From Pyxidicoccus trucidator (lineage in GTDB: Bacteria > Myxococcota > Myxococcia > Myxococcales > Myxococcaceae), in the NCBI RefSeq assembly GCF_010894435.1, contig NZ_JAAIXZ010000001.1, forward strand, positions 774,322-838,321: DNA of 64,000 nucleotides, given 5' to 3'. The first letter of the stretch is position 1, and each line of letters begins with the position of its first letter. Shown here one piece after another: positions 28,398 through 30,461 of this stretch. Both the position numbers and the translations under genes were made by a program. The notes below the pieces were generated by a model that saw only the letters and a list, made by a program, of their open reading frames with translations, was not told where the DNA came from and ran no database searches.

Positions 28398-28874
28398 ATG
28401 TGCCGTTGGATGTCCCTGCTGCTCGTCATGGCCGCGGCGTGCGGCCTCTGTCCCGATTCCTCATCGCGCCTCTCCGGTCTCGGCGACGGTGCGGGCCCAG
28501 ATGCGGCTCCACACCGGACCGTGCACGTCCACGCGCCCCCGGGCGTGGAGGCCGCGGGCAGCAACGTCCCCCTGCTCTACCTGGAGGAAGGACATGCCCT
28601 GTTCTTCCCTCAGGGCGCGTCGCGCCCGGCCCACGCGCTGGTGCCCGGCCCAGGCGAGCTGGTCGCGCTGGGACGGCGCCAGGACATCGTCATCATCACG
28701 GTCGGCCCGGAGCCTTCCATCCAGGCGAACACCGACCACCATGCCACCCCGGAGCCTTCCGAGCAGGCGGCAACCGGACCCGCGGACCCGAAGCCTTCCG
28801 CCCAGGCAGCCACCCCACCAGATGGATGGACGCGCTACATCACCCGCCTCATCCCACTCGCCCTGGCGCCATGA
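28398..28874 (+). CDS. Lipoprotein with degenerate Pro/Glu/Ala repeats
   Basis: A 158-residue protein of unknown function. The ATG at 28398 has AAGGAGGA 6 nt upstream. Residues 1-15 are a lipoprotein signal (MAAAC). A compact N-terminal segment contains VHVHAPPG, NVPLLYLEEGHALFF and IVIITVG, likely a small beta domain. A linker has three degenerate copies of a PEPSxQA-like unit, and the C-terminus is hydrophobic (RLIPLALAP). It stands alone between the Omp85 operon and an inverted repeat. Confidence 0.7.
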   Translation: MCRWMSLLLVMAAACGLCPDSSSRLSGLGDGAGPDAAPHRTVHVHAPPGVEAAGSNVPLLYLEEGHALFFPQGASRPAHALVPGPGELVALGRRQDIVIITVGPEPSIQANTDHHATPEPSEQAATGPADPKPSAQAATPPDGWTRYITRLIPLALAP

Positions 28875-28952
28875 GGCGGCGAGCGCCGCGGCAGCCCTCA
28901 TGGAGAAGAGCGCCCGGAGGGAGCATCGCGAGGCTGGCCGGACGTGACCGAC

Positions 28953-29020
28953 AGCGTGCTGTTCGGAAATGTCGGGACATTTGAGGGCTCAGAACCCCCG
29001 ACATTTCCGAACAGCACGCT
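28953..29020. repeat. Perfect 24-bp inverted repeat with 20-nt spacer
   Basis: The arms are 28953-28976 and 28997-29020 and are exact reverse complements over all 24 bp, centred on a 20-nt loop. The arm core is TTCGGAAATGTCGGG. There is no T-tract and no flanking direct repeat that I can see. It is less GC-rich than its surroundings. It could be a terminator-type hairpin for the lipoprotein gene, a mobile palindromic element, or a protein-binding site. Confidence 0.9.
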
Positions 29021-29254
29021 CACCAACGGCTCCGGGCCTGCGGCGACGACGCTCCTGGGTGCCATCGCCACGGACAGTCCGTCACAGCGCGAGCCCTCAC
29101 ACCCCAGCGGGCACACCGGCGGAGCTTCTCAATCCACGCAGCGCGCAAGCGCACCCTCACGCGGCGGAAGTTCCTGCCACGTCCAGCTACCGCCCTCCTC
29201 GGAGAGCGAGGCACGAGGCCAGAGGCCCCCTGGCGACCCGCGCTCGATTCTTCA

Positions 29255-29260
29255 TAGGCT
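29255..29260 (+). promoter_or_regulatory. TAnnnT hexamer 7 nt before the flavoprotein start
   Basis: TAGGCT ends 7 nt before the ATG at 29268, without a Shine-Dalgarno sequence in between. This is another leaderless-type arrangement in this window. Confidence 0.3.
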
Positions 29261-29267
29261 TACGGTC

Positions 29268-30461
29268 ATGACGAGCCCGCTCCCGCACGCCGCCCCTGCC
29301 GCCTCCGAAGCCTCTCCGCACCCGCTGCTGGCCGCCGCCGAGGCGCTGTTCCCGCGCCTGTCCGCGCGCTCGGATGAAATCGAGAACGCACGCAGGCTGC
29401 CTCCGGACCTGGTCGCCGAGCTCGCCCGCGACGGCTACTTCCGGATGATGATTCCGGAGTCCCTCGGCGGGCTGGAGCTGCACCCGGCCGTGTCCTTCCA
29501 GGTGATGGAGTCGCTCGCGAGGGCGGACGGCGCCACGGGCTGGTGCGTGATGATTGGCGCCGCCACGGCGCTGACCTCCGCCTGGCTGTTCGAGCCCGCG
29601 GCCCAGGCCATCTTCACCCGCCCGGACGTCATCACCGGCGGAGTGGCGGCGCCCATCGGCCGCGCCGAGCGCGTCGAAGGTGGCTACCGGCTCTCCGGTC
29701 GCTGGCCCTGGGCGAGCGGCAGCCAGCACTGTCATTGGCTGGTGGGAGGCGGGGTGGTGACGGAGGGCGGCAAGCCCCGCATGGTCCGCGAGGGCATGCC
29801 GGAGGTGCGCATGTTCTTCTTCCCCCAGGAGCGCGCGGTGCTCCACGACACGTGGTTCGCCTCGGGCCTGTGCGGCACGGGCAGCGGAGACATGGAGGTC
29901 AAGGACCTCTTCATCCCGGACGAGTACACGTTCTCTCTTGCGGGCCAGCCGCCGCGCGTCGCCCGCCCGCTCTACGGCTTCCCCTTCGGACTGCTGGGGA
30001 TGGGAATCCCGGCCGTGGCGCTCGGCATTGCCCGTCGCGCCATCGACGAGCTGACGGCGCTGTCCCGGCAGAAGACACTGATGCTGGAGCGCCGCCTGCT
30101 GGCCGCGCGCCCCGCCGCGCAGGAAGCCGTCGCCGACGCCGAGGCCACCGTGCGCTCCGCCCGCGCCTTCCTCCTGGAGTCCCTCCACGCCATCCACGCC
30201 GAGTCCACGCGAGGCCCCGTCTCCGTGCGCTCCCGCGCCGAGCTGCGGCTGGCGATGACGCACGCCACCCGGAGCGCCGCGCGCGCCGTGGACCGGATGT
30301 ATGAGGCCGCGGGCGGCACCGCCGTCTTCCGCTCCAGCCCCCTGCAGCGCTGCTTCCGGGACGTCCACACCGCCACCCAGCACGCCATGGTGGCCCCGGC
30401 CACGCTGGAGCTGACGGGCGGCCTGCTCCTGGGACTCGAGCTGCCCACCTTCACGCTGTAG
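29268..30461 (+). CDS. Acyl-CoA dehydrogenase-family flavoprotein (HsaA-like)
   Basis: A 397-residue protein of the acyl-CoA dehydrogenase fold. The N-terminal helical domain has LPPDLVAELARDGYFRMMIPESLGG. A beta domain with GRWPWASGSQHCHW follows, then the C-terminal four-helix region with LALTHATRSAARAVD-like helices. The features (RxSGRWxWxSG, CSTC-like middle and the type 2 C-terminus) resemble flavin-dependent monooxygenase oxygenase components such as HsaA more than beta-oxidation enzymes, and the catalytic Glu of the latter is not evident. No reductase partner is adjacent. The start is the ATG following the TAGGCT hexamer. Confidence 0.85.
   Translation: MTSPLPHAAPAASEASPHPLLAAAEALFPRLSARSDEIENARRLPPDLVAELARDGYFRMMIPESLGGLELHPAVSFQVMESLARADGATGWCVMIGAATALTSAWLFEPAAQAIFTRPDVITGGVAAPIGRAERVEGGYRLSGRWPWASGSQHCHWLVGGGVVTEGGKPRMVREGMPEVRMFFFPQERAVLHDTWFASGLCGTGSGDMEVKDLFIPDEYTFSLAGQPPRVARPLYGFPFGLLGMGIPAVALGIARRAIDELTALSRQKTLMLERRLLAARPAAQEAVADAEATVRSARAFLLESLHAIHAESTRGPVSVRSRAELRLAMTHATRSAARAVDRMYEAAGGTAVFRSSPLQRCFRDVHTATQHAMVAPATLELTGGLLLGLELPTFTL

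Follow-up and report, generated by a model that had tools for sequence, protein, structure and literature searches.

Myxobacteria are models for bacterial development, and the Pyxidicoccus trucidator DNA examined here carries, in a gap between two genes, a long and perfect palindrome that raises two questions: what kind of element it is, and what keeps it in the chromosome. We refer throughout to the whole 64-kb stretch of DNA analysed (64,000 nucleotides) as the window.

The palindrome and its setting

The two arms, at 28953-28976 and 28997-29020 on the forward strand, are complementary over 24/24 bp and flank a 20-nt loop at 28977-28996, exactly as the first-pass annotation had described them. 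The left arm reads AGCGTGCTGTTCGGAAATGTCGGG, and the parts shared with the family described below are 28959-28976 on the left and 28997-29014 on the right, with a loop of the ACATTT...AGAACC type (family asymmetry ACWTTT / AAAACC). This is the sole perfect inverted repeat in the window with arms of 24 and a spacer of up to 60, and with arms of 12 the window yields 13 start positions, the number that this repeat alone accounts for, against an average of 2.0 in five mononucleotide shuffles of the window. It is also AT-richer than its surroundings, as had been claimed, with a G+C content of 56% across 28953-29020 and 71% window-wide. Folding of the forward-strand RNA gave -55.2 kcal/mol (z -7.9), with 0/200 dinucleotide shuffles as low.

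The region is indeed gene-free, lying between a gene end at 28874 and a called start at 29268. The upstream gene (28398-28874, forward strand, start uncertain) has its stop 84 nt before the family core and gave zero Pfam matches at E 0.01; its 3' part, at 28706-28819, holds three imperfect 33-nt direct repeats that are 73-100% alike. Downstream is an acyl-CoA dehydrogenase-like gene (29268-30461, forward strand), whose start, called by our own codon-usage gene caller, is 253 nt after the core. There is no T-run site of terminator type within 28500-29500, so the reading as an intrinsic terminator fails, in agreement with the first-pass annotation. An Rfam search returned 4 matches up to E 1, all below their gathering score. 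The earlier statement that the palindrome has no flanking repeats needed amendment, as the repeat extends beyond the 56-bp core by ~25-30 bp in both directions. For the window copy this weakly conserved palindromic unit, to which no strand is assigned, spans approximately 28932-29041 (the core plus ~27 bp at both ends), limits that are taken from the family profile and not from the copy itself.

A dispersed family in Myxococcaceae

A search with 74 bases and a pattern of 15 bases turned up 15 copies with both arms and 3 remnants with one (C1:1604869, C1:1609211 and C9:305037) in this genome. On C6 there is, in addition, an isolated 15-mer carrying one mismatch. The number of copies excludes the single-copy locus that the first-pass annotation had set against its own suggestion. 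The densest repeat cluster seen in this genome (L064 6870-11241; G000:C1:1604869-1609240) spans 4.4 kb and comprises a complete copy plus two one-armed remnants. The shared core consists of CTGTTCGGAAATGTCGGG, a short asymmetric loop and CCCGACATTTCCGAACAG, with 18 bp per arm, and weak conservation of the flanks for ~25-30 bp on each side gives a palindromic unit of ~110 bp. Rows without a two-armed core were dropped (L065 and L066, and by our rule also L181 and L320, both of which matched the model). Across the family the loop is 16 to 68 nt long, and the 18-bp arms are fully complementary in 58/101 copies.

A covariance model built from 35 copies, picked among the better BLAST matches, gave matches in 14/27 genomes of the genus, and a scan of the phylum with stricter filters in 18/195 genomes, which represent 3 genera, all of the one taxonomic family Myxococcaceae. 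Likewise, the exact inner pattern occurred in a named genome collection in 22 stretches from four named sources: M. xanthus AM003, M. vastator AM301, Myxococcus sp. CA023 and a record titled Comamonas sp. KCTC 72670. The BNCN records with the last title (L142-L159) appear to be G042 of a Myxococcus-type genus, and the title looks wrong. No match came from phage or plasmid records or from viral contigs, one of these searches being for an exact 19-mer only. In five near-closed genomes 45/55 copies lie in the chromosome half centred on dnaA, although sites are shared between genomes, so that the 55 copies are not independent and the p-value is too small. One copy in this genome (L079 5202-5257; G000:C19) is ~24 kb from dnaA, with counterparts near dnaA in G010 and G002.

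The genes that flank the window copy also occur together in relatives, and in the orthologous gap of the six examined (G010, G023, G002, G020, G021 and G012) the core is absent, while four of these (G010, G023, G002 and G021) have copies of the family at other sites. The simplest reading would be a gain of the window copy in this lineage, with several losses as the alternative. Copies of the family are non-autonomous and dispersed, some being lineage-specific, as is usual for MITEs. The first-pass suggestion of a REP/MITE-like element therefore stands as far as dispersed intergenic copies, gap-specific presence and, in some relatives, IS630-type composites are concerned, and falls for a strict REP, with no Y1 transposase match in this genome; the repeat is lineage-restricted and, in a broad sense, REP/MITE-like.

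None of 101 copies is inside a gene called by the same caller. Among 74 copies in the window's genus, 42 are in tandem, 26 in convergent and 5 in divergent gaps, with 1 unclassed, and the upstream stop is the closer gene end in 35/42 tandem copies. With one vote per independent site (41 sites) the counts are 23 tandem, 15 convergent and 2 divergent, with 17/23 tandem sites nearer the stop (p 0.035). Twenty-one sites in other genera comprise 11 tandem, 4 convergent and 4 divergent; 8/11 are again nearer the stop, but the convergent bias is not seen there (4 vs 4 of 21 sites). A stop faces the core within 100 nt in 50/73 copies, compared with 20% under random placement in sampled gaps. Gap-type bias was judged from convergent versus divergent counts in place of a length-weighted null for convergent gaps, which was set aside as unfair because the element lengthens its own gap and because 12 G006 tiles chosen by hand formed part of its basis. 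Counted by hand, loop orientation with respect to the upstream gene is 20 vs 14.

Fixed arms and a changing loop

Sixty-one of 106 distinct copies fell into 18 ortholog groups in which both flanks match, giving 90 pairs that are not independent of one another. Identity in these pairs was 98.2% for the arms, 73.8% for the loop, 72.4% for the near flank and 90.0% for the outer flanks. In the 15 most diverged pairs (outer flanks 75-85% identical) the arms were 99.3% identical, while the loop (58.4%) and near flank (59.6%) had fallen close to the level between unrelated copies (60.6% and 53.6%, respectively). Because the search relied on the arms, it misses decayed copies, and these values overstate arm conservation.

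The loop is not only variable but also invertible, and was found in both orientations in 7/18 ortholog groups. In one pair, G019 (L223) and G007 (L089), the 20-nt loop is exactly reverse-complemented and the adjoining flanks match. The arms can also change together: all 7 analysed G131 copies have AAACGTC in place of AAATGTC in both arms, and other matched arm changes were seen in one copy of this genome (L068) and one of G132 (L293). In alignment A2, which holds 88 rows of the 101 copies (13 long-loop copies were left out), 9/23 pairs have changed on both sides, which 1/500 shuffles reaches. However, a control structure slid by -1 outscores the true pairing on two covariation measures, with a covariation score of 0.068 (37 cells) against 0.053 (21 cells), and we therefore take covariation as modest support only. 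Tolerated wobbles showed no strand bias that would indicate RNA function (15 vs 16 by sense strand).

Template switching at close, near-perfect inverted repeats yields inversion, and both the loop flips and the matched arm changes would be expected by-products of it. It seems improbable that a hairpin-recognising enzyme or site-specific recombinase instead acts on the hairpin as its substrate, actively flipping and exchanging the small core at scattered sites while the arms stay fixed, a process that would account for the exact loop inversion, for both orientations in those 7 groups and for the long loops of one relative, G002. Loops of 30-52 nt are present in 9/10 analysed copies of that genome (L209-L218) compared with 0/15 in this genome and 1/11 in G010, and G002 carries long loops at 7/8 ortholog groups. 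Loop exchange within G002, proposed from within-genome similarity, was rejected, as identity lends it no support (1611/2000 label shuffles reach the observed value) and the lengths alone stand out.

Hairpin, binding site or mobile DNA

We moderately favour the view that the window repeat belongs to a dispersed palindromic family of Myxococcaceae that is non-autonomous, is kept as a hairpin and acts at transcript 3' ends. Copies would spread occasionally as miniature mobile DNA, in some relatives within IS630-type composites, and those settling just after genes would be retained because their 18-24 bp stem acts at transcript 3' ends, where it could be a roadblock or a hairpin for processing or stabilisation, in either direction. 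We infer this 3'-end role from placement and arm conservation. The conserved arms are compatible with either the hairpin or the binding site that the first-pass annotation had put forward.

The arm letters are fixed across species, which the stem alone does not need, and a bound protein would fit this equally well. The main rival, which we regard as possible, is a DNA-level site: a sequence-specific protein, for example an organiser of the chromosome's origin half, would bind each arm or the cruciform. The lack of strand preference among the wobbles and the excess of copies around dnaA would also suit such a site, but the latter does not represent 55 independent events, and a loop of such variable length is odd for fixed dimer spacing. 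Furthermore, the known nucleoid protein CdbA has, as described in PMC7156744, a direct-repeat site.

We consider it doubtful that the family is a purely parasitic MITE, conserved through recent spread and without host function, since the arms remain intact at orthologous sites where loop and near flanks have diverged as far as in unrelated copies. The evidence for mobility comes from relatives. In G022, five copies are enclosed in repeats 356-421 bp long whose ends read CTSAT and ATSAG. In 4/5 the TSA letters at the two ends match, with the same middle letter, which is weak because only two letters are possible. Longer composites in G019, G007, G024 and G001 carry the first and last parts of a broken IS630-type transposase beside the hairpin, and a 151-aa piece in G042 (L158) matches PF01710 above its cut-off and the NCBIfam IS630 model below the cut-off of that model. 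The left end of the composites resembles that of the broken IS630-type copy in L158, a resemblance not seen at the window copy. At L158, however, the insertion sequence does not include the hairpin, so it may also be that IS630 elements simply land near the hairpin; PMC1525189 describes REPs as targets for insertion sequences. A clean empty site for the G022 copies was sought in G006 and none was found, the gaps being too rearranged, and alignment was limited to the right edge of a single composite (L177).

Mobilisation of a REP by a RAYT (a Y1 tyrosine transposase) would likewise give many intergenic palindromes, but we think such an origin highly unlikely and unsupported, with PF01797 matched in 0/1 genomes (this genome only) where the control was positive in 5/14 known genomes. 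An integron attC site was considered and set aside on general motif rules only.

Arms that resist change around a loop that drifts and flips make this repeat a natural case for testing why long palindromes persist in bacterial chromosomes. If the preferred reading holds and the hairpin acts at transcript ends, it would bear on the way transcripts are ended or kept apart, in the absence of T-runs, in genomes of high G+C.

Among the papers searched we found none describing this repeat. Fujitani and colleagues (J Bacteriol, 1991) reportedly described a dispersed repetitive sequence of M. xanthus with ~20 copies; that sequence is alike in being dispersed, and may or may not belong to the same family. 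REP, BIME and REPIN repeats are similarly short, palindromic, intergenic and present in many copies, whereas the repeat described here has a far lower copy number, a longer perfect stem and, in this genome, no Y1 match. The hairpins within IS630-ended composites, with broken transposase pieces, resemble IS630-type bacterial MITEs in some relatives, but most copies, including that of the window, show only the ~110-bp palindrome. Finally, like intrinsic terminators the repeat forms a hairpin just past stop codons in the window's genus, but unlike them it has no T-run, its stem letters are fixed and it is alike in both directions.
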